From a virus, in the IMG/VR virus record IMGVR_UViG_3300032087_001544, positions 1 to 35,355 of that record: 35,355 bases of DNA; one strand, 5' to 3'. Shown here one piece after another: positions 3,568-32,204 of the stretch. The position numbers were made by a program, and so were the translations under genes. How positions within the stretch are numbered: the stretch's first letter is position 1; every line of letters starts with the position of its first letter. The notes beneath the pieces were generated by a model, which did no database searches, had not been told where the DNA came from, and was given only the letters and a program-made list of their open reading frames with translations.

Positions 3568-3982
3568 AAATTATATACTCTTTGTCATATGTTAAGTCGC
3601 TTTTGTAAACACCTTTGTTTACGCTGTACTCTTCTTGCTCTGACTGGTCTATGTCTTGGTCTGTACAGAAAATTTTGTCTACAATATTTGTGTCAACCTT
3701 AAAGTTTATGTCATTCCAAGTGTTTGTACTTAAATTCCAGTAGTCACTATTTTGGCTATATACGTCATAATCGTTTTGTACTAGCAAGTCGTAGTAGTGA
3801 CCCTCTTCTAAATTAAACACACCACTGTATACCTGGTAGTCATTCTCTTGCGTTACTGTAGGTGTGTATACTGTAGTGACGTTTGTTTGGTCGTCTCTAA
3901 GCTGTACAGTAGTGTTTTGACTATAATTTCTAGGTATTAGTTTTATAGTTTGCGTGTCTGTTGTAGGTTTTAGAATTTTCAT
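3560..3982 (-). CDS. Phage structural protein of unknown role (beta-rich)
   Basis: 140 residues, MKILKPTTDTQTIKLIPR at the start and an acidic C-terminus. The middle has alternating polar/hydrophobic strands (QVYSGVFNLEEGHYYDLLV) resembling an immunoglobulin-like or beta-sandwich fold. It sits between the tail tube and portal genes and overlaps the portal start by 8 bases, so it is probably a minor virion component. It is the first gene after the terminator at 4044-4016 and has the TACGTTATA motif 8 bases upstream of its ATG, so it probably heads its own transcript. Confidence 0.6.
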   Translation of the reverse strand: MKILKPTTDTQTIKLIPRNYSQNTTVQLRDDQTNVTTVYTPTVTQENDYQVYSGVFNLEEGHYYDLLVQNDYDVYSQNSDYWNLSTNTWNDINFKVDTNIVDKIFCTDQDIDQSEQEEYSVNKGVYKSDLTYDKEYIIYE

Positions 3983-7225: not shown

Positions 7226-7378
7226 TTAGCTAGAAGTCCTATTAATCGAGCCTATGCCTTGTGCGTACATAGAGCCATCGCAGCACTCTCTACTGTATGT
7301 GTTTGTATGCCAGCATAGACAAGCTCGCTTGCTGTTTGTTGGTGTAAAAGCTCTTCTTGTGTCTGTGTGTTTTTTCAT
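7226..7378 (-). CDS. Small Cys-rich phage protein, 50 aa
   Basis: ATG at 7378 overlaps the TGA of the protease gene (ATGA). The product contains RACLCWHTNTYSRECCDG and AQGIGSI: four Cys in a compact pattern and a conserved-looking AQGIG. I recognise this CLC...TYS..CC.G...QGIG pattern from small unannotated genes in Bacteroidetes phage structural clusters. The spaced Cys could bind a metal or form disulfides. Function unknown; the motif makes it a real gene. Confidence 0.75.
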   Translation of the reverse strand: MKKHTDTRRAFTPTNSKRACLCWHTNTYSRECCDGSMYAQGIGSINRTSS

Positions 7379-8304
7379 TTGTCTAGTTCTTTAAGTTTGC
7401 TTATAGCCCAGTTAATACCAGCAGATCCACCCCAAGCGTCCCACATTAAACCACCACAGCCTTCGCTATAGGGTACGTCTTTATTTTGTTGGTGTCTTTT
7501 AAAGCTAGCCATTCTAGCGATTGTGTCTCTCGTTATACCTTGTTTCTTTGCGAGTTGGTTGGCTCTGCGTTTGCCTACGTCTGTACCACAAGACCCCCAG
7601 CCGTTTTTATCTGCCCACTCTAGAGCTCGCTTTGCGTTATTGCTAGCTGCCTCTGGGTAATCAGTGTAACTCTCTAGACCTACTTTTTTTTTTAACTCGT
7701 CGGCTACAATAGAATACTTAACCTCTAGTAGTTTTAACCCAGCTTCTATTTCGCTAGACAAGTCTTCTTCTATAGGCTCTAGTGGTCGCTCTGCTTTTTC
7801 TGCGAAGAAACCCTCTATACTGAACCCCTTAATTAAACCCTCTTTCACAAACTCTTGCCATATTTTGTCATTAGTGACTTTTATAGCTCCGACCCAAGTG
7901 CCTAGTGGTAAGTCCATACCATAGCTGTTTGACTTGTCATTTTCTTTGTCGTCTATGATCCAGGACTCGACTAAGGTAAGACCCTCAATGTCTTTTATGT
8001 GCTCATAGGTAGCGTTACTTTGGTAGCCTCTCATTAAGTAAAGTTGGCTCGCCTTACGTACTGTCTCTTTACTAAAGTGTATGTAGTACTCTTCGTCGCC
8101 GTCCTTTCGGTATATCATTTTATTAGGCACTAGTAACGCACCTACAAGTAATTTTTTCTCGTCGTCTACAGACTTAAACTTGTACTCCTTTTTGTTGTTT
8201 AGAGCTACAAAGTTTTCTTCTATTGCTGGGTACTCTACAACACTGATTGCGTCGATACCACTATACTCGTCTGTCTCGTCAATTATTAGTTCTACTATCT
8301 TCAT
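7375..8304 (-). CDS. Prohead protease, XkdF-like (peptidase S78_2 type), with extra C-terminal domain
   Basis: 309 residues. Residues 100-165 carry the family signature: H102 in TYEHIK, then GLTLVESWIIDD with S114, ENDKSNSYG, GTWVGAIKV and IKGFSIEGFF. These match XkdF-like serine proteases, which mature capsid and scaffold in the prohead; H102 and S114 are the likely catalytic pair. From about residue 215 a separate domain follows (YPEAASNNAKRALEWA, GWGSCGTDVGKRRANQLA, CGGLMWDAWGG), also found in other phage head proteins; its job is unknown. A TACGTTATA motif lies 6 bases before the ATG. Scaffold and capsid lie just downstream. Confidence 0.85.
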   Translation of the reverse strand: MKIVELIIDETDEYSGIDAISVVEYPAIEENFVALNNKKEYKFKSVDDEKKLLVGALLVPNKMIYRKDGDEEYYIHFSKETVRKASQLYLMRGYQSNATYEHIKDIEGLTLVESWIIDDKENDKSNSYGMDLPLGTWVGAIKVTNDKIWQEFVKEGLIKGFSIEGFFAEKAERPLEPIEEDLSSEIEAGLKLLEVKYSIVADELKKKVGLESYTDYPEAASNNAKRALEWADKNGWGSCGTDVGKRRANQLAKKQGITRDTIARMASFKRHQQNKDVPYSEGCGGLMWDAWGGSAGINWAISKLKELDK

Positions 8305-8335: not shown

Positions 8336-9991
8336 CTATCCTAGACTTGCACCCTCTATAGTTTTTCTGTCTAGTTCTTGTGCAGTGCTTACGTCTCCAG
8401 CTACTACATAGGCTCTTTGTGGTTTTTTAGTAGTCTCTGCGATAGCTTCTGCTATTTGATTTGTACCAGTAGCACCGACTATATTAAAGGCTGGAGCTGC
8501 GATTGCTGGTGCGGCTACTGTAGCTCCACCACCACCACCACCTTTTACGCCTTCTGGTTTCTTGACAGCTGTAATTTGTTTTACAGTTGCCATACCACTA
8601 GCTAGTATACCAGCAGCACTTGCAAATTTTGCTATAGTACCAAATGGCTCTGGTATTGTAGTTTTATTAGCAAACACCTCTGTCATTCCCTGAAACGTAT
8701 TTATCGTAGCTTGTGCTATAGCTGCAGATTTGCCAGCCTTGCTATTCTCGCCTAGTATCTGTGATAGTGCACCAAACGTGTCGCCCACTATTTGCATCTT
8801 CTGTAGCTGTAAGGCTTTGTCTCTAGCTATGTCTTCTGCTGCAGCCTCGTCTTTAATCTTCTGTGCTTTCTCGTCATAAAACTTATTGACTTCTGCCTCT
8901 GCCATACGTTTTTGGGCTGGTAGAGCTTTACTGTCTTTTATTTCTTGTAAAAATCTTTCACGCTCTCTCTCTAATAGTATCTGCTGAGCTGCCTCACTGT
9001 CGCCTAAGTTTTTCTCAAAGAAGCTAGATCGTATTTCGCCTACCTTACGAGTACCTTCACGTCTTAGGTCTATTTCTTTTTGTAAACGTTTTTGTAAAGC
9101 GTCTAGCTCTTTTTGGTATGCCTCTTCTTGGTCTTTAAGTCTCTGGTCTGCTGCTGCCTTGTCTTCTTTGTTTACTTGTAACTGATAGCCAGCTCGCATA
9201 TTGCGTAGCTTACTTAGTTGTTTCTCTGTTTCTGCAATACCCTCGTCGCCCTCTTGTTTTATTTTCTCTGGGTCTATAATTAAGTCTCCTAAGAAGTCTT
9301 GAAAGCCTTGACGCAAGTTTGACTCTGCACCAAACAAACTAGCAACCTGGTCAATACCTTCTAGTAAGGCTAGTATAGGTAATGTTACTAAACCAATTAA
9401 ACCGTCTAGTATATATCGGTTTTTTTCTGCTGTTTCTACTTGTGTTTTTTGTATGCTTTTTTGTGTCGCTAGTTGAGCCTCTAGAGCAGCTATAGTTTCG
9501 TCTGTCTGCTTCATTTTTAGCTCTAGTATTTCTCGCTCTGTCTTGCCTTGTAGTTTGAGTATATTCTCGGTCTCACTAGTGCGTTCAAAGTTTTGCTTAG
9601 ATAGTTCGGCTGCACGCTCTTGATCCTTTAGTAGTTTCTTTTGCTCGCCAGTCACTCCAGAAACCGCCTCTTGTATCTTAGACCAGTTTGCAGCAATAGC
9701 AGCGACAGCTACTACAATAGCACCAATACCAGACGCTAGCATAGCAGCTTTTAAGCCTTTAAAACTTTTAGTTAAACCACCGACAGCTTTTATACCACCT
9801 AGTAGCTGGTCTTTAAAATTTAAATACGTAGAGGCTGCGTCGTCAGTCACAGCGTCAATAGCCTTAACACCGTCGTAGTTTCTGTCTAGCTCTTCGTTAA
9901 ATTGTTTTATACCGTTGGTAACTTTCGTAAGCTCCGACTGAGCTTTGCCAGTCTTTACTTCTACTTCAACACCTATTTTCTCTACTGCCAT
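8336..9991 (-). CDS. Tail tape measure protein
   Basis: 551 residues. The N-terminus (VEVKTGKAQSELTKVTNGIK) is the usual tape-measure start. Residues about 80-105 form a hydrophobic segment (MLASGIGAIVVAVAAIAA) and there is a second near 195-213 (LIGLVTLPILALLEGI). A long charged helical region between about 235 and 405 (QEKELDALQKRLQKEIDLRR-like) follows, then AAIAQATINTFQGMTEVF and a Gly-rich end. Tape measures set tail length at about 1.5 angstrom per residue, which would predict a tail near 80 nm. It is the last tail gene before the prohead protease. Confidence 0.85.
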   Translation of the reverse strand: MAVEKIGVEVEVKTGKAQSELTKVTNGIKQFNEELDRNYDGVKAIDAVTDDAASTYLNFKDQLLGGIKAVGGLTKSFKGLKAAMLASGIGAIVVAVAAIAANWSKIQEAVSGVTGEQKKLLKDQERAAELSKQNFERTSETENILKLQGKTEREILELKMKQTDETIAALEAQLATQKSIQKTQVETAEKNRYILDGLIGLVTLPILALLEGIDQVASLFGAESNLRQGFQDFLGDLIIDPEKIKQEGDEGIAETEKQLSKLRNMRAGYQLQVNKEDKAAADQRLKDQEEAYQKELDALQKRLQKEIDLRREGTRKVGEIRSSFFEKNLGDSEAAQQILLERERERFLQEIKDSKALPAQKRMAEAEVNKFYDEKAQKIKDEAAAEDIARDKALQLQKMQIVGDTFGALSQILGENSKAGKSAAIAQATINTFQGMTEVFANKTTIPEPFGTIAKFASAAGILASGMATVKQITAVKKPEGVKGGGGGGATVAAPAIAAPAFNIVGATGTNQIAEAIAETTKKPQRAYVVAGDVSTAQELDRKTIEGASLG

Positions 9992-12198: not shown

Positions 12199-13352
12199 TA
12201 TCTTATATTGTTTATTTTGTCAAATGCGTGTTCAAACTCTACTGTGTAGTCAGATAGCTGGTCGTTAAGACTTGTTTTATATGTCACTGACTTTGTAAGT
12301 GGTATTACTGGTATTATTTTCTCTTCTGTTTCTGTTATCTCTGTGTACCATACTTGCTCGCTTAATAACAGCTCTTCTATGACGGAGTTGTAGTCGTCGT
12401 TTATAAAACCAGTATTCATTGAAATTTTGTCTTTGCCTTGCGACATAAACGCTTGTTGCTGGTGTTTATATGTTTTGTAGGTAAGTGTAGACTGATCGAA
12501 TATAGATGCCTTAAACTGCTCAGACTTTACATTAGTTGACTCTACTGACTTTTTGAAAAACCACAAGTCCTGTAAAGCACCAAACTTATTAACGAATGTA
12601 ACTTTGTAAGGCTCGTACTTACATTCGCTTACTGTAATAATCTTAACTACTTCTATACCAGCGTCTGTGTTAATTATAACCTGGTCTACTTCGCCTATGT
12701 TAAAGCTGTTTAAAAACTGATCTAAGCAGTAACTGTCTTCTAGAGTGCCACCGTCATTTATGACTCGCTCTCTGTATGTGTCAACGTCGTCAATACCGCT
12801 TACTGTTACGTAGTCAATTATGCTGTCTGTGTTATTAGAGTATGTAATTGTTTCTGTACGTTTCTCTTCTCCTTTGTACAAGAATGTCACTGTGTTTGTG
12901 TCTTCTGCAAATACTGGTATTCTGACATTGTCGTAGTTAAGTCTGAATATAGTATTGTTTGACATTAACAGTCCTCTTGAAAGCTGAGGATTCGTACCCT
13001 CGTGGAAGTAACCATAACCATCTAAAGCTATATAGTCAACAGGTGTAGGTGTTTCAGATCCTACTGTTTTTGTTAATGTAAACGTAGGTCGAACCCATAC
13101 TGCCTGACTGTCGTACTCTCCGTCAAACTCAATGTCCAGGTAGTCTCTTACTAGTTCGCTAATTTCAAATACTACAAAATTGTTACCAGACAAAGGTGTA
13201 TTAGTAAGTGTATATCTAAGCTCGCTCGATGTAGGAGAAGATAGTAGAGCACCAGTGTAAACGTATAATTCCATCTGTGCACTAGTGAGAGTGCCAGTCT
13301 GAGGCTCTGCTTTTAAATAAAACGGACTCCTTAAATTTATCTTAGTTGCCAT
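12198..13352 (-). CDS. Tail structural protein, beta-rich
   Basis: 384 residues beginning MATKINLRSPFYLKAEPQTG. The N-terminal half is made of beta strands (ELYVYTGALLSS, FEISELVRDYLDIEF), and the C-terminal half has KFGALQDLWFFKKSVES, YKVTFVNKFGAL and DYTVEFEHAFDK. This FVNKFGALQDLWFFK pattern is common in uncharacterised tail proteins next to the large hub-like gene in Bacteroidetes phages. It overlaps its upstream neighbour by 11 bases and its downstream neighbour by one. Virion role by context; no enzymatic motif seen. Confidence 0.65.
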   Translation of the reverse strand: MATKINLRSPFYLKAEPQTGTLTSAQMELYVYTGALLSSPTSSELRYTLTNTPLSGNNFVVFEISELVRDYLDIEFDGEYDSQAVWVRPTFTLTKTVGSETPTPVDYIALDGYGYFHEGTNPQLSRGLLMSNNTIFRLNYDNVRIPVFAEDTNTVTFLYKGEEKRTETITYSNNTDSIIDYVTVSGIDDVDTYRERVINDGGTLEDSYCLDQFLNSFNIGEVDQVIINTDAGIEVVKIITVSECKYEPYKVTFVNKFGALQDLWFFKKSVESTNVKSEQFKASIFDQSTLTYKTYKHQQQAFMSQGKDKISMNTGFINDDYNSVIEELLLSEQVWYTEITETEEKIIPVIPLTKSVTYKTSLNDQLSDYTVEFEHAFDKINNIR

Positions 13353-13926
13353 ATTTAATGTTTATGTTTGGTACGCTTTTTAGATCGTGCTCAATTATGT
13401 CTGCACCGTCTTTAGCAAAAGCATTACCTAAATTTCTAAAAGTAGGATTCTTGTAAGCTGTTTGTGCGTCTCTAAAAAAGTAACTGGCTGATATACCAGT
13501 ATACCATATTGACCTGGATATTAAAAAGACTAAAGACTTTCTAGGTATAAATCTACCTTTGTCGTCTCTGACTTCAAACGTGCCTCTTTGTAGTACCCAT
13601 TCGTTTATGCCTTTACGTAGACCTTTTTTGCCACGTCCGCTACCAAACTGATATGGGCTATTCGGTGCTTTGTTAAATCTAGACTTTGAGCCTTTAGGCA
13701 TCTTCTCTGGGTCGTTACCCTGTACTCCTAAGTCTACAAACTTACCGTAGTCTTCTCCATAGAAAACTATTCTAGGCTGCTCTGTCTTTTGCTGGGTTAC
13801 TTTATAGTGTAGACTATTAGACAGCTGACCAGTATTGTCTTTGTCTTTAAGCGTTAAGTTTTTCTTGGCTTTCTCTACTACTTTATGTCCGTAGCTTTCT
13901 AGCTCTTTGATTATATTCTTTAGCAT
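13342..13926 (-). CDS. Head-tail joining / tail completion protein, HK97 gp10-like
   Basis: 194 residues. N-terminal helix MLKNIIKELESYGHKVVEKA, then LKDKDNTGQLSNSLHYKV and IVFYGEDYGKFVDLGVQG. The TGxLxxSL...Y..FVDxGV layout resembles HK97 gp10-like neck/tail proteins, and the very basic middle (GSKSRFNKAPNSP, GKKGLRKG) is usual there. It overlaps both neighbours, between another small tail protein and the beta-rich tail protein. Family call is by pattern only. Confidence 0.6.
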   Translation of the reverse strand: MLKNIIKELESYGHKVVEKAKKNLTLKDKDNTGQLSNSLHYKVTQQKTEQPRIVFYGEDYGKFVDLGVQGNDPEKMPKGSKSRFNKAPNSPYQFGSGRGKKGLRKGINEWVLQRGTFEVRDDKGRFIPRKSLVFLISRSIWYTGISASYFFRDAQTAYKNPTFRNLGNAFAKDGADIIEHDLKSVPNINIKYGN

Positions 13927-14390
13927 TTGTAAATATCGTTATGTACGCTTACTGTGAATGTAAAAGCCCAGCCAGCTAATTGTCCCTCAAAGCGGTCAAA
14001 GAATATCTCGCACGTTACGTCTCCGTCCATTTGAAAACCGTCTTGATGCAGAGTGCCATTCATAAACTTTTGTGTCAGTCTATTACCTACTGCTAGCATT
14101 GTATTAAGTATCTGGTGTTCGCTTTCGTTTTTAGCAAAAGGGTCTTTTGATTCGTTTTTATATATGTCCACACTGTCCATACAAAGCACTGTTAAATTCA
14201 TATCTACAGTTTGATCTGTAAGTGTAGCTCCATTGATTAATACGTGGGCTAGAGGGAAAATAGTTTGCTTAGATAGGTCTACTTCACTAAGGTCTCCGTA
14301 TGTTACGGTGTTTATGTCTACGTCATCTAGTAGCGTGTCTTTGACTGTGTCTAGTACCAGGTAAAATGCTCTTGCTCCTGTATTGCTCAT
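13920..14390 (-). CDS. Tail completion/terminator-like protein
   Basis: 156 residues, MSNTGARAFYLVLDTVKDTL, with beta strands in the middle (QTVDMNLTVLCMDSVDIY), a helix SEHQILNTMLAVGNRLTQK, and a final strand GWAFTFTVSVHNDIYKC. An N-terminal helix, strands and a late DxFEGQLAGWxFxF segment are typical of small tail-end proteins preceding the gp10-like gene in Bacteroidetes phages. Its ATG overlaps the stop of the chaperone -1 extension (ATGA), tying its translation to frameshifting ribosomes. Exact role inferred. Confidence 0.55.
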   Translation of the reverse strand: MSNTGARAFYLVLDTVKDTLLDDVDINTVTYGDLSEVDLSKQTIFPLAHVLINGATLTDQTVDMNLTVLCMDSVDIYKNESKDPFAKNESEHQILNTMLAVGNRLTQKFMNGTLHQDGFQMDGDVTCEIFFDRFEGQLAGWAFTFTVSVHNDIYKC

Positions 14391-14657
14391 CGTGTTAATT
14401 TATTTTTGTAGTGTAATGTCTCTACTTCGTCTTTCTCTTTTTCGTACATTAGAAATGTTAAACAGTAGTGTAAGTTTTGTTTTGTCACTGCGTCTAGGTT
14501 TAATACGTTTCCTTTTGCTAGTCTGTGTATCGATGTGTACCACCCCCACTTTTTATTGAAGTTGGTATTTGAGTCGAAACTTCCGTCTGTAGACTCGGCA
14601 CTTGTCCAGAGTCCAGAGTAAGATTCAATAAGTCGCTCTCTAAATTGTAAAAAAAAA
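14387..14657 (-). CDS. -1 frame extension of the tail assembly chaperone (G-T-like fusion part)
   Basis: From the T9 tract onward the -1 frame stays open for about 87 codons and reads ...QFRERLIESYSGLW, then FNKKWGWYTSIHRLAKGNVL and CLTFLMYEKEKDE, to a TGA overlapping the next ATG. The KWGWY.SI..LAKG segment is one I know from C-termini of tail-cluster proteins in Bacteroidetes phages, so this frame is the conserved one. It has no convincing start of its own at the upstream end, so it is probably made as a fusion with the first 164 or so residues of the zero-frame protein. Made this way it would total about 250 residues, against 207 for the unshifted product. Confidence 0.75.
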
Positions 14658-15141
14658 CAATGGCAGAAACGGCTACACTAGCTGGCATATCTAGCATCGC
14701 ATCGTACCAGCTGTCTCCTTTATACTCTTCTATTTCGTATTTGTCTTTGTACTTTCTTACTATGGGTCTATATAAGACTGCCATAGCTTTGTGCATATTG
14801 TCCCAGTCTGTAATGTTATTTTCTATGTCTACAAACTCTCCAAACGTAAGGTCGTTTAAGTCTGTAACCATACCAAACTCTGTTTTCCCTAATTTGAATT
14901 TATTAATAAGACTAGGTTTCTCTTCTAGTGCTTTGTTTATTTTGGTTACAATAGTGTTTATGTCTCCAATCTTAAACTTGATCGACTCGCTGTAGGGTAC
15001 ACCACAAAATATTTCTAGCATCTTTAAGGCTGCGTAGTCTTCTGTGTAGTCGTCTGCATTCTCAAAAGTCTTTATAAACTTCTGGTAATGTTTTAAAGGT
15101 ATATCGTGTAAAGACGTTGGGACTAGTAAGTCTAGCTTCAT
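14518..15141 (-). CDS. Tail assembly chaperone, zero-frame product (G-like)
   Basis: 207 residues in the unshifted frame. Residues 1-160 are helical (LKHYQKFIKTFENADDYTED, FEFVDIENNITDW-like) and resemble chaperones that count or mature the tape measure. The codons for V162-F163-F164-Y165 cover the run of nine T. Beyond this the zero frame gives a low-complexity tail (SLQTEVSTQIPTSIKSGGG) and stops, while the -1 frame is the conserved one. Preceded by terminator 15214-15187 and a TACGTTATA motif, so it heads the tail transcript. Several tail genes lie between it and the tape measure, farther than usual. Confidence 0.7.
   Translation of the reverse strand: MKLDLLVPTSLHDIPLKHYQKFIKTFENADDYTEDYAALKMLEIFCGVPYSESIKFKIGDINTIVTKINKALEEKPSLINKFKLGKTEFGMVTDLNDLTFGEFVDIENNITDWDNMHKAMAVLYRPIVRKYKDKYEIEEYKGDSWYDAMLDMPASVAVSAIVFFYNLESDLLNLTLDSGQVPSLQTEVSTQIPTSIKSGGGTHRYTD
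14649..14657 (-). promoter_or_regulatory. T9 slippery site for -1 programmed frameshift
   Basis: Nine consecutive T on the coding (minus) strand, read GTT TTT TTT TAC in the zero frame. Any T7 inside satisfies the X XXY YYZ rule, so both tRNAs can re-pair one base back. Immediately downstream the -1 frame holds the conserved part. Confidence 0.7.
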
Positions 15142-15427: not shown

Positions 15428-16600
15428 TTAGCGTATAGCGTATTTACCGAAGTTGGGTCTGCTTAGTTTAGTGAATATACTATAGCGAACCGCATCAGCA
15501 CTGTGGTCGTTTTGTGATACTGGTTTATTAAGTAGTACACCGTTTTTGTCTTCTACCCACTTATAATTTCTAAACTCTTTTAGTGTGTTTGTGCTGTCGC
15601 TTGTTATGTGTAGTTTATGTCTCTTTAATATATCGATTCCAGCGAGTATACTGTCTTTGCCTTTGAGGCTGGGCTTTATGTTCCATTGACCCTGTCTGCG
15701 TATATAGTCGATGCTCTTGGGCTCTGCGGAGTCGGCAAAAATCTCGTCTCTACGGTCAAAGCCTATGTCCAGGAGTTTATTGTGTATGTCTTCATTTGTC
15801 ATAGCATACTCATAAAACAGCTCTTTTATATAAAGGTTGTCGCCAGACTTGTAAGTCATAACTAAAACCGACGGATCGTTAACATAGCCGAAATCTAAGC
15901 CAGCTGCGACTAGCTTTGCGTCTAGTGGTATTTCTGTAACCTCAGTGAATGTAAATATAGTAGCTCTGTTTCTACCTACTTGCCCTAGACCATATACTCT
16001 CCAGTAGTCTGGGTCAGTCTCTTGTAAGCGTTCTATTTCTGCTATAAGCTCTGGCTCTAAAAAAGGGTTATTCTTATAAGTGGTTATGTGAAAGTCTGCG
16101 TCTTCTCTAGTCTTTACTTTAGTGTAGATCCAGCTGTATTCGTCACTAGGGTTGTAGTCTAATATTAAGCTAGGTTTTGTGTCGCTAGCTGTACGAAATA
16201 AAATCTGTGTATATTGTTCGTAGCTAAACTCGTTGCACTCATTTAAAAACGCTAGGTCTCGCTTTCTACCTTTTAATCTCGATGGCTGGTCTACTGAAAT
16301 AAACTCGAATAGGTTTCCGTTTAGCTTGTATTCGCTGTTACTTTTATTGTGGTCTGCCTCTACGTATAAATCGTATTTATTAAGAATGTCGAAGAAGTCA
16401 CGCATAACCGTAGCCCTAAGAGCTGGGTAGGTTACTCTAAATATTGAGATTGTCTTGCCAGTATTGTTTTCGGCGTAGTCAAATATTAACCAGAGAAGTA
16501 TGTTATATGTTTTGCCAGAGCGTGTACCGCCTTGCTCTATAACTATTTTCTTGTCTGTTTTTTCTAAGTGAGACCAGACTACGTTTGTATCTATGTGCAC
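15428..16600 (-). CDS. terL: Large terminase subunit (PBSX-like)
   Basis: 390 residues. The ATPase domain shows Walker A GGTRSGKT at 24-31 and a Walker B region LAFLNE at 116-121 with the catalytic Glu. The nuclease domain has the RNase H-like acidic residues D236 (GLDFGY), D290 (IFADSAEP) and D366/D369 (NDHSADAVRY). It pumps DNA into the prohead and cuts concatemers. The start codon is GTG overlapping the stop of the small subunit (TAGTG), so the two are coupled. Slightly short for terminases but all motifs are present. Confidence 0.95.
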   Translation of the reverse strand: MHIDTNVVWSHLEKTDKKIVIEQGGTRSGKTYNILLWLIFDYAENNTGKTISIFRVTYPALRATVMRDFFDILNKYDLYVEADHNKSNSEYKLNGNLFEFISVDQPSRLKGRKRDLAFLNECNEFSYEQYTQILFRTASDTKPSLILDYNPSDEYSWIYTKVKTREDADFHITTYKNNPFLEPELIAEIERLQETDPDYWRVYGLGQVGRNRATIFTFTEVTEIPLDAKLVAAGLDFGYVNDPSVLVMTYKSGDNLYIKELFYEYAMTNEDIHNKLLDIGFDRRDEIFADSAEPKSIDYIRRQGQWNIKPSLKGKDSILAGIDILKRHKLHITSDSTNTLKEFRNYKWVEDKNGVLLNKPVSQNDHSADAVRYSIFTKLSRPNFGKYAIR

Positions 16601-18951: not shown

Positions 18952-18980
18952 AAAAAAAAAGGTCGTTTGTTAAAAACCTT
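18952..18980 (-). terminator. Weak intrinsic terminator overlapping the stop of the resolvase-like gene
   Basis: Minus-strand AAGGT / ACCTT stem (5 bp, extendable with weaker pairs) with a 12-base loop containing the stop codon, then a long T run. Weaker than the other terminators here. Confidence 0.4.
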
Positions 18981-24948: not shown

Positions 24949-26118
24949 TTAACTTGTTAGTGTTTGTAATTCGCTATCGCTTAGTGCTTCGTTAAAATAT
25001 ATTAGTTGTTTGCATTTTCCGTAGAAATCAAGACCACCTCCGCCATCTTCAAATCGTAAAGTATTTAATCCTGTTGGTGTGTTTCCACTATTGTCAGTGC
25101 TAACCTCTACGCCATTTATCCATAATGCGAAGTCATCTTGCTTGTATTTAACAGCCACCTTATTAAAATCAGTTACGTCTGTTACAGTATAAAATCCACC
25201 TGCCTGAAAAACATTATTACTTATAACTTGATAATCTATTCTGTTTGTTGCAGCTCCGTATAATATCTCAATTCTATCGGTATAATCTCCATCAGATATA
25301 GCTATTCTTCTGCTTGTGCCACTACTTACAAACGATGCTATTTCAGCAAACAAAACCCCTTCGCTGTCGTTAAACTCTGCACTTGTACCTGAACCATTAC
25401 AGATATCGGCTGAGCGTGATACCGCACCTCCTGACGTTGGTATATATGAAGTTGTATAGCTTCCTTCCTCTACTTGTCCACCGAAAACCTGAAAGTCCGT
25501 TGCTGTACCATTTATACTTCTATAGTCAACAATATATACATAATTTACACTTGCACCTCTTTGAAAAGTAATCTGTTCTCTTTGCCATTTACCTGTAAAA
25601 GTAATTGATTTTTCAGCACCCACACCGCCACTTCCAACAGCTATTGCTCTTATAGTTGTAGTTTCTCCAATAACACCTTTGTAATATAACGAATAAGTTA
25701 AAGAACCTGAACCTCCACTCAAAGTTTCAAAACAATGAGAATTGTTTGTATCATTTGTAATGACTCTTGTAGATGTTTTACTTCCATCAGGAGACACGCC
25801 ATAATTAGCAGTTAATGAGCCACCACCTGTATTAAAAGTAAATATAGATGCAAGGTTAACGCTTTGAATTAATAAATTTGTTCTACTCGGCTCTAAAAGC
25901 AAATGAGGACAATCTCCTACTACGCCATTAGTTAGTGGATAGTCTAAGCGTGGTATATCATCGCCTACTGTTTCTATGAGTCCATCTTTGTTTACTCGTG
26001 TCGCAGTCGAACCACTACCAAAATTAAAATCCCCATCGCCATTAGCAGGTAAGACAGAGTATAACTCGCCATCTCTATAACCACTTGGTATTAACGCTAT
26101 TGATGCTTTATCGTACAT
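24949..26118 (-). CDS. Lectin-like tail fibre protein, paralogue 3
   Basis: 389 residues. Starts MYDKASIALIPSGYRDGELY, then FNFGSGSTATRVNKDGLIET and HLLLEPSRTNLL, a linker found in many phage fibres. Residues about 90-230 form one beta-sandwich (carbohydrate-binding-like), and residues about 255-385 another concanavalin/LamG-like unit with DSEGVLFAEIAS, YKQDDFALWINGVEVS, TLRFEDGGG, KCKQLIYFNEALSDSELQTL. Two further paralogues precede it, 1-2 bases apart. Role: host surface recognition. Starts with the module shared by gene 1. Confidence 0.8.
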   Translation of the reverse strand: MYDKASIALIPSGYRDGELYSVLPANGDGDFNFGSGSTATRVNKDGLIETVGDDIPRLDYPLTNGVVGDCPHLLLEPSRTNLLIQSVNLASIFTFNTGGGSLTANYGVSPDGSKTSTRVITNDTNNSHCFETLSGGSGSLTYSLYYKGVIGETTTIRAIAVGSGGVGAEKSITFTGKWQREQITFQRGASVNYVYIVDYRSINGTATDFQVFGGQVEEGSYTTSYIPTSGGAVSRSADICNGSGTSAEFNDSEGVLFAEIASFVSSGTSRRIAISDGDYTDRIEILYGAATNRIDYQVISNNVFQAGGFYTVTDVTDFNKVAVKYKQDDFALWINGVEVSTDNSGNTPTGLNTLRFEDGGGGLDFYGKCKQLIYFNEALSDSELQTLTS

Positions 26119-26119
26119 A

Positions 26120-27289
26120 CTAACTTGTTAATTTTTCTAATTGTTCGTCTGTAAGAGCTTCTGTAAATACTTGTACGTTTCTTACTTTGCCGTAGAATTT
26201 GTTACTACCTCCACCTTGTTCAAATCTTAATGTATTTAAACCACTAATTGAAGTAGCTGTAAAACCTGCTCGTACTGTTTTTTGTACACCATTAACATAA
26301 ACTCTGTAATCGGATTTTGATGCACCATACTTTACAGCTATTTTTAAATTGTCTGTTAAATCATACCCTGCATCGCCATATATTGATTCTGATGAACCTG
26401 TACCATTATTGTATAAATTTAAATTGCCATTCGTTCTGTATGCTATCATAATACAATTGCTTACTGTACCATCACTAATTGAAATGTGCCTGTGAGAATC
26501 ATCTTCATTAGTAAGTGCTTCTATTTCCGCATACAATACTCCTTCACTATCGTTAAAGTCTTGTGCAGAGCCACTATTATTACATAGGTCTGCATTACGA
26601 GTGGAAGCCGCACCTGTGGTGTTAATTAGACTTGTGCTATAATCTCCTTGCTCTAATTGACCACCCCAAGCTAAAATATCTAAATCAGTATCGCTACCAA
26701 ATGAGCTAAATACTCCAAAATTAAAAAACGCACTTCCTGAAGCATTGTTGCAAGAAACTTCAAATCTTTGCCATTGTGGAGTTACTGTATAAGATTGTTG
26801 TACAGAGTTTCTACCATATATAGCTACTTCTTGATTTTCAGTTGTATTGCTTTTAAGATATATAGAGCCATAGTAATCATCATTAAAGGCACTTGTGTTT
26901 GTGCTTTTTAAAGAATAATTACTCCCACTTGCTGACATTTGTAACCTTGTAGCTTCATTTTCTCCGTTAGGTGCTTCTGCATAGTTTGCAGTTTCTGTAA
27001 GAGTACCACCAACTGTAACTGTAGTAAATTGCGATATATCGTTGCTATAAGTAGCATAATTAGTCCTACTCGGCTCTAAGAGTAGATGCCCTTTAGTGTC
27101 ATTAGTAAAGTCTATTCTTGGCACTCCTGAAGCAGCAGATGCGATTAAACCATCTCTACCTACATACGTTGCAGTAGAACCCCTTGAAAAGTCAAACTCT
27201 TTGTTAAAGAATAAACCACTATTGTCGTTATATGCTAATAGCTTATCTTCTTTTACTGCCCAATTACCATTTCCTAATTTTACTGCCAT
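26120..27289 (-). CDS. Lectin-like tail fibre protein, paralogue 2
   Basis: 389 residues, the same length as the next gene. FDFSRGSTATYVGRDGLI and GHLLLEPSRTNY lead to a beta-sandwich (QWQRFEVSCNNASGSAFF), then DSEGVLYAEIEA, IAVKYGASKSDYRVYVNG, LNTLRFEQGGG and KVRNVQVFTEALTDEQLEKL: the C-terminal lectin unit. Differs from its neighbours mainly in loops and in the middle domain, as expected for receptor-binding variants. Separated by one base from the gene before it. Confidence 0.8.
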   Translation of the reverse strand: MAVKLGNGNWAVKEDKLLAYNDNSGLFFNKEFDFSRGSTATYVGRDGLIASAASGVPRIDFTNDTKGHLLLEPSRTNYATYSNDISQFTTVTVGGTLTETANYAEAPNGENEATRLQMSASGSNYSLKSTNTSAFNDDYYGSIYLKSNTTENQEVAIYGRNSVQQSYTVTPQWQRFEVSCNNASGSAFFNFGVFSSFGSDTDLDILAWGGQLEQGDYSTSLINTTGAASTRNADLCNNSGSAQDFNDSEGVLYAEIEALTNEDDSHRHISISDGTVSNCIMIAYRTNGNLNLYNNGTGSSESIYGDAGYDLTDNLKIAVKYGASKSDYRVYVNGVQKTVRAGFTATSISGLNTLRFEQGGGSNKFYGKVRNVQVFTEALTDEQLEKLTS

Positions 27290-27290
27290 T

Positions 27291-28937
27291 TTATATAATT
27301 GTATAGTTGTTTGCTTCTGCTAATAGTCTAAAGGATTCGTAACCCTCGCCTGTCAGTCTTTCAAGTAAATCATTACTTAGTGCTTCTTTAAATACTGCTA
27401 CGCATTTTACATCTCCGTAGAAGTCATACGAAGTATTGGTAGCAAATCTAAATTTTAATTCTTGTAAATTCAAACCTGATATAGTATTGCTATCACTACC
27501 TACTAAAGTGCCATCGTGAAAAACCTTAAACCCACTTGAATTATAGCTTAAAGCTATTTTGTTGTAACTACCATAATTGAAAGCAGACGATATGTTATTT
27601 GTACCTGAGCTTGACCCTACGAGTACGTCAAAATCATTAGAATTATCAATAAGAGCAATTTGCAATCTATTGTTAAGTGCATCTCCAATAGTTATCATAG
27701 AAAATGCGTTATCTAAAGCATTAGAGTCTTTTTTTATCTCTGCATATAGCACACCCTCACTATCATTAAACAAGTCAGCATTACCACTATTGTTTGCTAC
27801 GTCAGCAGAGCGAGTTACTGTTGAACCGCTTGTTGGTATGTAGGACGTTAGGTAATCCCCACTTTCTAACTGAGCAGCCCAAGCATAAATACCACTACTT
27901 GGTATATCGTCAATCCAAAGACCTTGTCTTGCCCCGTGTAAATTATCTTCAATTAAATCAAATCTCTGCCAATTTTCAGTTACTGATAATGTTTTTTGAG
28001 TTTGAGTCAACACAGGGTCTTTAAGCACTACATTAACAGTACCTGTAACGCTTTTTAGATATATACTTCTTGACACTACACCTATAAGAGTGCTTGATGC
28101 TTGATAATAAAACCCATTTGAGCCATTACTAACTATTTTAGAAGCATTATACTCTCCACTTGGGCTTAAAGTTTCAGTTGTATTAGAAGTTATAGTTGTG
28201 GGTGATTGAACAGTCCATTGCGTAAAATCCTCTGAGTAAGGTAAATAATTAGTCCTCTGTGGTTCGAGCAAAAGATGACCACAAGTTCCAGCGCCTGAAT
28301 AAGGTGAATAATCTATTCTTGGTAAGTCGGTATCGTCTGTTACTAATTTAGCAGATACATTTGATATTGTAGATGTAGCACCATCTTTTGTTCTAATTCT
28401 AAAAGCACCATTTCCTGTTACAATTATATCAAAGTTATTTGTGCCGACCTCTAATACTTTGTAAACTAAACCGCTTCCATTTATTAACTCCAATTTATTA
28501 GCAATACTTAATGCATCAACTGTTATTGATACTCTATACTTTTTGCCAACTGTTATTATATCTTGATTGATATAAGCATTTAGACTTGTAGAGTCCATTG
28601 ATACTGTACCATCTCCAAATGTAACGTCTGATTGAGAAGTCCAACCTGTGCTACCATCATTAAAATCGCCATTAGTAACGAGTTCAGTAGGCAAGACTTG
28701 ATAAGGCGGTATAATAGTATTTAAGCTACCATCTGAATATCCAGTTGGCGTTAGTAAAATACTCATTTTACCTAATAGATCTTCATCTTCAAACTCTTGT
28801 AATTGATTTCTAGTGCATTGCACATTTTCAATATACTCTGAGTTTCTAGTTAAAGCTGATATTAGATTTTGGATAAAAGTCGTTATTGTTGGTATACCTA
28901 GTATAGCACTAGCTAAACCCAATATGCTTGGAGCCAT
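27291..28937 (-). CDS. Lectin-like tail fibre protein, paralogue 1 (long form)
   Basis: 548 residues. N-terminal 55 residues are unlike its paralogues (MAPSILGLASAILGIPTITT, with a hydrophobic helix, then SEYIENVQCTRNQLQEFEDE), probably a virion anchor. An extra domain follows (TPTGYSDGSLNTIIPPYQ, VTNGDFNDGSTGW, up to about 190), then GHLLLEPQRTNYLPYSEDF, a sandwich, and the lectin end with DSEGVLYAEIKKD and VAVFKEALSNDLLERL. It has the 88-bp repeat shared with the left-edge fibre gene. First of three fibre genes; starts 4 bases after the previous stop. Confidence 0.8.
   Translation of the reverse strand: MAPSILGLASAILGIPTITTFIQNLISALTRNSEYIENVQCTRNQLQEFEDEDLLGKMSILLTPTGYSDGSLNTIIPPYQVLPTELVTNGDFNDGSTGWTSQSDVTFGDGTVSMDSTSLNAYINQDIITVGKKYRVSITVDALSIANKLELINGSGLVYKVLEVGTNNFDIIVTGNGAFRIRTKDGATSTISNVSAKLVTDDTDLPRIDYSPYSGAGTCGHLLLEPQRTNYLPYSEDFTQWTVQSPTTITSNTTETLSPSGEYNASKIVSNGSNGFYYQASSTLIGVVSRSIYLKSVTGTVNVVLKDPVLTQTQKTLSVTENWQRFDLIEDNLHGARQGLWIDDIPSSGIYAWAAQLESGDYLTSYIPTSGSTVTRSADVANNSGNADLFNDSEGVLYAEIKKDSNALDNAFSMITIGDALNNRLQIALIDNSNDFDVLVGSSSGTNNISSAFNYGSYNKIALSYNSSGFKVFHDGTLVGSDSNTISGLNLQELKFRFATNTSYDFYGDVKCVAVFKEALSNDLLERLTGEGYESFRLLAEANNYTII
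28653..28740. repeat. 88-bp near-identical repeat, copy 2 (other copy 99-186)
   Basis: 86 of 88 bases match positions 99-186 in the same orientation. Inside the extra N-terminal domain of fibre paralogue 1. Confidence 0.9.
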
Positions 28938-30410: not shown

Positions 30411-30667
30411 ACAACAACGACTATATCTTGTAGTTTTATAATGTAGAAAAAATTATCTTCATATTCAATTCTATGACCAGCGTGCTTATCGTAAAACACT
30501 ACATCTCCTTTTTTCAACTTAAAACTTTCATCAGCTACACTAACAATTTCAGCTTTCACATATCTAATATCTTGCTTATCAGCTTCAGATAAATATAAAC
30601 CGCCTTCTGTTTTAGTAGTACCTTCTTTTATTTTCTTTATGATTATATAATTACCTACCGCTTTCAT
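30407..30667 (-). CDS. groS: GroES-like co-chaperonin
   Basis: 86 residues against about 97 in bacteria. The beta-barrel starts with KAVGNYIIIKKI, the mobile loop is KEGTTKTEGGLYLSEADK with the GG-hydrophobic anchor that docks into GroEL, and the barrel ends with KKGDVVFYDKHAGHRIEYED. It caps the GroEL ring. The gene overlaps the 3' end of groEL by 17 bases and follows it, the reverse of the bacterial groES-groEL order. Both proteins in one phage suggest a self-contained folding chamber, probably for virion proteins. Confidence 0.88.
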   Translation of the reverse strand: MKAVGNYIIIKKIKEGTTKTEGGLYLSEADKQDIRYVKAEIVSVADESFKLKKGDVVFYDKHAGHRIEYEDNFFYIIKLQDIVVVV

Positions 30668-32204
30668 CTACTCTAAGGTTGTTAATTACACAATCAGTTG
30701 ATAGTATTGTTGTAGCTACAGAAGCCGCGTTTATCAAAGCGCTTTTAGTTACAAGCAAAGGATCGATAATTCCTTCGTCGATCATATTTACCATATTTCC
30801 TGTAACCACATTCAATCCAAAACCTACATCACCAACTTGTTTATGCTCAATACCAGCATTACTAAGTATAGTTTTGTAGGGATATTTTATTGCTTTCTTT
30901 AAAACTATTTCACCTATAATAGATTCATCTAGTTCTTCAGAAGCATTTAACAAAGCAATACCGCCACCTGAAACTATACCTTCTTTAATAGCGGCTTTTG
31001 TAGCACAGATAGCATCTTCTACCCTATCTGATTTTTCTTTTAATTCAACCTCTGAATTAGCACCTACTTTTACAATAGCTACTTTAGCAGATAGTCTAGC
31101 TAGTCTTTTTTCTAAACCAACTACCTTATGAGGTTTTAATTTCTTTTTAAGATCTTTTTTTATTTGCTTAATAATGTCTTCAACTTCTTCTGAGTTACTA
31201 TCAACTTGAATTACAGTTTGATCGTTATCAGTTGTTGTTTTTATACATTCACCTAAGTAATCTACTTCAATAGTATTTAGATCATCACCTAATGTTTCAT
31301 TAATAATTTTAGCGCCAGTAAGCAGGGAAAGATCTTCTAATATTTCTTTTCTTCTTACGCCAAAAGCAGGTGGATCAACTATATTGATCTTAATGTTACC
31401 TTTTACTTTATTCATAACTAAAGCAGATAGCACTTGTGTTTCTACTTCACCGATAATAAACAAAGCTCGTTTTGATTTTATAATATGTTCTAATACTGAC
31501 TGTATCTGTCTTATTGACTCTACTTTTGAATCTAGTATTAAAACTAAAGGGTTGTCAAGCTCGACTGTACCTTTTTCTTTATTGGTTATTAAATTAGGGT
31601 TTAATAAACCTTTATCATACTCTACGCCTTCTACAATATCAAATGTAGTTTCATCACCATCAGAGTGCTCCATGATTACAACACCTGTTTCACCTACAGC
31701 TCTAAAAGCATCTGCTATAAGTTTACCTAACACAGGATCGTTGTTTGTAGATATTGTAGCTATCTGATCTATCATATCTTCAGTAACACCTACTGAATTA
31801 TCTTTTAAATAATCTACAATTTTATTTACACCAGATAATATACCGTTCTTAATATTACGCTCGTTTGATTTATCAATTAAATCGTAAGCTTCTTTCAATA
31901 TAGCATGAGCTAGCACTGTAGCTGTTGTTGTACCGTCACCAGCTTCTTTAACAGTTTTGCGTGCTGCTTCTTTTAATAGTGTTGCGCCCATATTTTCTAC
32001 AGGATCTAATAGTATAATGCTATCAGCTACTGTAACTCCGTCTTTTGTAATAACTGGTTTACCGGTATTGTCTTCTAGTATAACACATTTGCCGCTAGCC
32101 CCAAGTGTGGAGCTAACAGCTTTTGTGAGTTTTTCTATACCTTTAAATACCTTATCTTTGGCATCAACACCAAAGTTTAGGTTTTTGACAATTTTGTCAT
32201 TCAT
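30651..32204 (-). CDS. groL: GroEL-like chaperonin
   Basis: 517 residues (bacterial GroEL about 545). The equatorial ATP site is present: D55 (ITKDGVTVA), GDGTTTATV at 89-97 with D90, the ATPase Asp as D397 (RVEDAICATKAAI) and GIVSGGGIAL just after. The apical domain has ETGVVIMEHSDGDETTFDIV and EGVEYDKGLLNPNLIT. The C-terminal GGM repeats of bacterial GroEL are missing; it ends TDCVINNLRVDESGR. It folds proteins inside a double ring with GroES. Phage-borne GroEL is rare and often has a single-ring mechanism. Confidence 0.93.
   Translation of the reverse strand: MNDKIVKNLNFGVDAKDKVFKGIEKLTKAVSSTLGASGKCVILEDNTGKPVITKDGVTVADSIILLDPVENMGATLLKEAARKTVKEAGDGTTTATVLAHAILKEAYDLIDKSNERNIKNGILSGVNKIVDYLKDNSVGVTEDMIDQIATISTNNDPVLGKLIADAFRAVGETGVVIMEHSDGDETTFDIVEGVEYDKGLLNPNLITNKEKGTVELDNPLVLILDSKVESIRQIQSVLEHIIKSKRALFIIGEVETQVLSALVMNKVKGNIKINIVDPPAFGVRRKEILEDLSLLTGAKIINETLGDDLNTIEVDYLGECIKTTTDNDQTVIQVDSNSEEVEDIIKQIKKDLKKKLKPHKVVGLEKRLARLSAKVAIVKVGANSEVELKEKSDRVEDAICATKAAIKEGIVSGGGIALLNASEELDESIIGEIVLKKAIKYPYKTILSNAGIEHKQVGDVGFGLNVVTGNMVNMIDEGIIDPLLVTKSALINAASVATTILSTDCVINNLRVDESGR

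Follow-up and report, generated by a model that had tools for sequence, protein, structure and literature searches.

How one gene might give two proteins from overlapping reading frames, and whether the RNA polymerase or the ribosome would change the frame at a run of nine T's (T9), was the question raised by this locus. The window (the whole stretch of DNA analysed, 35,355 nucleotides of the IMG/VR virus record IMGVR_UViG_3300032087_001544) carries the gene with this run and its neighbours all on the minus strand, as shown by the ORF list of the window. An earlier note on this DNA, made from the letters, had claimed a programmed switch to the -1 frame at T9, in a tail assembly chaperone gene arranged as lambda G/GT.

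Gene layout around the T9 tract

The features of the locus were as follows:

15428..16600, minus strand: terminase large subunit (TerL), directly upstream of the candidate slippage gene; PHROG 2, E 1e-42
14518..15141, minus strand: zero-frame ORF, the 'G-like' product, 207 aa; PHROG 32199 (function unknown), E 3.8e-20
14649..14657, minus strand: putative T9 slippage tract, zero frame GTT TTT TTT TAC at 14658..14647
14387..14650, minus strand: -1 frame extension, the 'T-like' domain, 87 codons plus TGA
14510..14551, minus strand: conserved block KWGWYTSIHRLAKG in the -1 frame, from the sequence and an alignment of 79 members
14387..14390, minus strand: ATGA overlap of the extension stop TGA (14389..14387) and the ATG of the next gene at 14390
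13920..14390, minus strand: next gene, 156 aa; PHROG 30964 (function unknown)
13342..13926, minus strand: HK97-gp10/Neck1-like tail completion protein; PHROG 5, E 0.004; PF04883, E 0.002, under the Pfam cut-off
8336..9991, minus strand: tail length tape measure protein; PHROG 24676, E 3e-16

The order of transcription was small terminase, large terminase, the candidate slippage gene, the 156-aa gene, the HK97-gp10/Neck1-like gene, two genes of unknown function, tape measure and prohead protease. The tape measure gene (9991..8336) lies 4.4 kb downstream of the candidate slippage gene, as the earlier note had it, with four genes between, and the gene order of Nonlabens phage P12024L was similar. 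The zero-frame ORF showed a conserved domain at about residues 1-173 followed by a weakly conserved tail; from the T9 site on this tail has 46 residues, where relatives share little similarity. Between its stops the -1 frame is open over 14677..14387 (minus), and the extension from the T run, LQFRERL...KKWGWYTSIHRLAKG...KNKLTR, has 87 residues, in agreement with the open stretch of about 87 codons proposed before. The zero-frame stop (14520..14518) falls inside the conserved block KWGWYTSIHRLAKG. The GTT TTT TTT TAC reading with its two frames was confirmed by coordinates on the minus strand, and the same holds for the ATGA overlap of the extension stop with the next ATG (14387..14390) and, in the alignment of 79 members, for the conservation of the KWGWY-type block in the -1 frame.

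Besides this tract, the coding strand of the window has T9 runs only at 18960 and 4024 (minus), both between listed ORFs. Elsewhere in the window, a phage-encoded GroEL-like chaperonin was found at 30651-32204 (minus strand; PHROG 5725, E 2e-133), and at 24949-28937 (minus strand) PHROG 5939 (tail protein) was matched by each of three consecutive ORFs, which look like a tandem family.

Conservation of the tract and of the -1 frame

When viral contigs were first searched with the 207-aa protein, 80 relatives of 43-99% identity were obtained, 59 with T9 and 21 with T10, and the -1 frame was open at the site in all 80. The set was widened by scans that took divergent members or the -1 domain as the query (for this domain, a profile from a narrower alignment), by a scan of bacterial genomes and by genome searches. 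The final detector made no assumption of T9: wherever a long zero frame and a -1 frame overlapped, it took the longest run of a single base, whichever the base. It demanded a WGW-like block in the -1 frame, and members without this block, among them Nonlabens phage P12024S, are therefore present only in the earlier counts. The fetched loci held 250 distinct site contexts in 105 clusters at 80% nucleotide identity, clusters that are not fully independent of each other; the run was T9 in 216 contexts and T10 in 34, and none of the 250 had a run below nine T's, a run above ten T's or a fused ORF. The alignment of relatives that the earlier note had proposed as a check thus showed both the T tract (T9/T10) and the -1 frame to be conserved in 250 contexts. 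Neither T8 or T10 read errors nor single-ORF relatives, both raised in that note as grounds for doubt, appeared among the DNA loci examined.

The T9 layout was found in the isolate P12024L and in a very divergent Flavobacteriales prophage, and the same layout was also present in contigs of megabase length. Divergent prophage or MAG copies also carried the tract, with few prophage copies among about 400 genomes each of the phylum, the family and the order. A prophage-like locus with a profile match only (E 2.9e-6) showed GCT TTT TTT TTG (T9) with KWGW in the -1 frame, and its 42% relative was also T9. Other runs of at least nine T's in the ORFs of these phages numbered 5 in 376 kb of stop-to-stop ORF, four of the five at the start of the gene or just upstream of it. 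Phe codons elsewhere in the gene were TTT and TTC at 422 : 152, and TTC was absent from both core codons of the site, which has a chance of ~2e-11 for one codon when 80 clusters are taken as independent.

Nei-Gojobori estimates on close pairs produced a dN/dS of 0.11 for the zero-frame domain and 0.13 for the extension past the zero-frame stop, where only the -1 frame is read. In the overlap the values were 0.26 for the -1 extension versus 0.70 for the zero frame, and therefore constraint lies on the -1 reading; purifying selection acts on the -1 extension and hardly at all on the zero-frame tail. Overall, the claim of a programmed switch to the -1 frame at T9, giving a short and an extended protein, was borne out to the point of being close to certain, because T9/T10 was present in all 250 contexts and the -1 extension is selected. 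In all representatives the +1 frame, to which the loss of one U or the gain of two in the mRNA would lead, stops within 0-5 codons; the F-R codons conserved in the -1 frame may produce these early stops as a side effect.

Polymerase or ribosome as the slipping machinery

The explanation we prefer is that T9 would act as a switch by which one start gives either the short 'G-like' protein or a 'G-T' fusion with 87 C-terminal residues read in the -1 frame. The RNA polymerase would slip on the nine-base A:U hybrid, a fraction of mRNAs would carry one extra U (or two fewer), and ordinary translation would then enter the -1 frame, while the ATGA overlap would link translation of the next gene to that of the fusion. 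Taken as a whole, with polymerase slippage at T9, short and fusion products and a probable chaperone pair, this explanation is judged likely. In many bacterial genomes, slippage-prone runs are visibly avoided from nine A or T (PMC1088944), and slippage of 15-55% was measured in secretion genes (T3SS/T6SS) of Shigella, Citrobacter and Yersinia (PMC4256274; see also PMC5009743). The signs of transcriptional slippage found here were an uninterrupted run of at least nine T's, a length kept in any register and the lack of synonymous interruptions. The scarcity of such runs in other parts of the ORFs also speaks for this explanation, as does purifying selection on the -1 product, which in most members has no start codon of its own.

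The strongest alternative is -1 ribosomal frameshifting, in which tRNA-Phe in the P- and A-sites would slip on U UUU UUU and the long run would add slip positions. Such frameshifting is established for lambda G/GT (PMC5009743) and was measured at about 6-7% in an HK97-like chaperone cluster (PMC3711429), and the site itself has U UUU UUU in the right phase. However, seven T's would be enough for the ribosome and the last base could be C (U UUU UUC), yet all 250 contexts had at least nine. The run was described by t5, the number of T's that close the codon ahead of the core TTT TTT, and t3, the number of T's after the core. The clusters, any of which can include two forms, were distributed over the (t5,t3) forms as (2,1) 85, (2,2) 8, (1,2) 5, (1,3) 5, (0,3) 1 and (0,4) 2. 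The run thus occupies all three codon registers with a total that is always at least nine, and T's lost at its 5' side were always restored at its 3' side, a compensation between the run ends that also stands against the ribosome. The T10 form (2,2) provides a route between registers on which the run always has at least nine T's. By parsimony, on a tree made from the zero-frame domain with the site left out, t5 changed at least 8 times, every resulting form having at least nine T's; independent pairs gave 3-4 cases with compensation and 0 against, too few for significance (median p 0.25). One family alternates GGT TTT TTT TTG (L317/L323) and GTT TTT TTT TGG (L324) in proteins that are 47-51% identical.

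Stimulators of ribosomal slippage were also looked for, and their lack counts against the ribosome. No downstream RNA structure was found, with a mean z of -0.06 over 79 representatives versus -0.72 and -0.50 in control stretches. No marked Shine-Dalgarno element was present, SD-like 4-mers occurring in 8/80 versus 2/80 in the control, too few to matter, and an upstream hairpin looked for at the site was not found. A downstream pseudoknot or hairpin, a Shine-Dalgarno element and an upstream hairpin were consequently rejected as stimulators for want of signal. The pattern of length, register and codons is hard to obtain from a heptamer alone, because the heptamer needs only seven T's and leaves its last base free. 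With any T9 run, nevertheless, U UUU UUU is also present in the correct phase; a ribosomal share is thus possible and the sequence is indecisive on it; ribosomal and polymerase slippage could both contribute. Slippage by the RNA polymerase is favoured over -1 ribosomal frameshifting with reasonable confidence, and the ribosomal alternative is considered unlikely, though it keeps an appreciable share of the probability.

Long homopolymers mutate, and some gene families exploit such toggling. On this basis the tract might be a contingency locus, in which replication slippage toggles fused and unfused genes in the DNA. No fused DNA form was present among the loci examined, however, and the T10 forms keep the two-frame layout because codons changed and not the net frame. 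With 250 concordant contexts and no fuse/split length variants among the loci examined, phase variation was largely refuted and is regarded as highly improbable. It is just as hard to credit that the downstream frame is a separate gene with its own start, as the separate 55-aa ORF annotated by GenBank in the Nonlabens phages would have it. Between the run and the WGWY block an ATG was present in only 5/79 cluster representatives and any start (ATG/GTG/TTG) in 20/79, and the FFLxFRxR...Y.ELF stretch before the block is conserved in the alignment of 79 members and selected in the -1 frame; an independent start was rejected for most members since start codons are scarce. Finally, a sequencing or assembly error splitting one gene, to which some platforms are prone at homopolymers, was refuted by the relatives and has a negligible probability, since 105 clusters, two isolates and megabase-long contigs all show the layout.

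A second tract was found in the prohead protease gene:

7375..8304, minus strand: prohead protease gene
7684..7693, minus strand: A10 tract at the joint of protease and C-terminal domain

An A tract was present at the same joint in four relatives, as A10 in L328, L329 and L336 and as A11 in L330. In L336 the -1 frame encodes the C-terminal domain, and slippage would be required for a full-length protein. Other protease relatives were without the run or the C-terminal domain, and many end at about 205 aa and have no C-terminal domain. On the strength of few lineages, this suggests that the protease A10 is a second, dnaX-like slippage site. In addition, the L101 record (G1125, 35634 bases) showed protease gene matches at 3604 and 33207 with near-equal scores, possibly because the assembly end is duplicated or the record has an end repeat. 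Only tentatively do we propose that in a broad clade of Bacteroidota phages slippage of the host RNA polymerase replaced ribosomal frameshifting at the G/GT-like gene and has a second use at the protease A10/A11, by which two morphogenesis ratios would be set by transcription errors.

Products of the gene and comparison with known systems

The two products are probably a tail assembly chaperone pair made at a fixed ratio. A tail-chaperone role is plausible by analogy and is the best guess because the locus resembles lambda G/GT in its architecture, in its position within the head-tail module and in the excess expected for the short form. The chaperone identity given in the earlier note is backed by architecture and module; no sequence or fold match was found, and the gene follows TerL and precedes the neck genes instead of adjoining the tape measure. 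Structure models, built without the isolate's sequence, had a pLDDT of 92 for the zero-frame domain (AlphaFold2, residues 1-174) and of 83 for the extension, which showed four helices. Comparison of the G-like model with the PDB produced nothing above Z 2.8, and Foldseek with the T-like model matched no PDB chain; both results are compatible with a known fold. Pfam had no match for the products of the gene. Weak matches to PHROG 166 'tail protein' in 15/78 members were not reproduced in whole records and were dropped as a functional clue for both reasons. The best chaperone-like structural match was one BFVD tail chaperone with E 0.25, which is not significant, and overall no significant sequence or fold match to known tail chaperones was found in Pfam, PHROG or the PDB.

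The next gene (156 aa) is probably translationally coupled to the extension, as suggested by junctions of ATGA in 46/78 and of TAATG/TGATG in 14/78 cluster representatives, resembling spa13/spa32. A number of BFVD proteins of ~240-270 aa (A0A516L611, A0A516L5A8, A0A6J5SVK3, A0A6J7WJY4, A0A6J5N0W0 and others) matched both models. Because these single-chain proteins match the G-like and the T-like model, remote relatives with a single ORF (about 15-25% identity) may exist; among the DNA loci examined none was fused.

The frameshift of lambda G/GT is a textbook case of ribosomal recoding in phages. If polymerase slippage is true here, the two-product logic would have been kept by other means, with the ratio conserved and not the machinery. 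The T9/T10 sites would then be a natural series for slippage studies in Bacteroidota, and the annotation of hundreds of phage genomes that miss the extension would be corrected. A literature search of non-subscription papers turned up no case of transcriptional slippage in the gene of a tail chaperone.

The closest known loci are genes 40-41 of P12024L and 38-39 of P12024S (JQ823123, JQ823122), which are direct homologues at ~31% identity. They have the T9 (CTT TTT TTT TAT) and the -1 block as KWGWY (P12024L) and KWSWY (P12024S), but the records annotate two separate hypothetical proteins and the frames are not linked. With lambda gpG/gpGT the locus shares two overlapping frames, a -1 extension without its own start, a short product expected in excess and a gene inside the head-tail assembly module. 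The likeness to lambda drawn in the earlier note thus stood for the two-frame layout and the module, whereas ribosomal slippage became doubtful, with at least nine T's in any register, compensation and no stimulators. The tract is a T9/T10 homopolymer here and a 7-nt heptamer in lambda, and here length is kept and not phase. Also unlike lambda, the gene comes after TerL and before the neck genes, at a distance of 4.4 kb from the tape measure, and is without detectable sequence or fold homology to known chaperones. The short:long ratio of lambda is 30:1 (PMC5009743), whereas it would be nearer 1-6:1 here if slippage is as efficient as in known bacterial cases. Finally, the locus was compared with the slippage genes mxiE/spa13 of Shigella, dnaX of Thermus, those of IS elements and tssM of Citrobacter. 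It differs from these in being a phage structural-module gene with a T tract in a very wide clade, where the slippage is a prediction from the sequence. Like them, it has a coding-strand run of at least nine A or T, with an extension (or truncation) in another frame, without recognisable ribosomal stimulators, and a coupling to the next gene as in spa13/spa32 is sometimes present in bacterial slippage genes.
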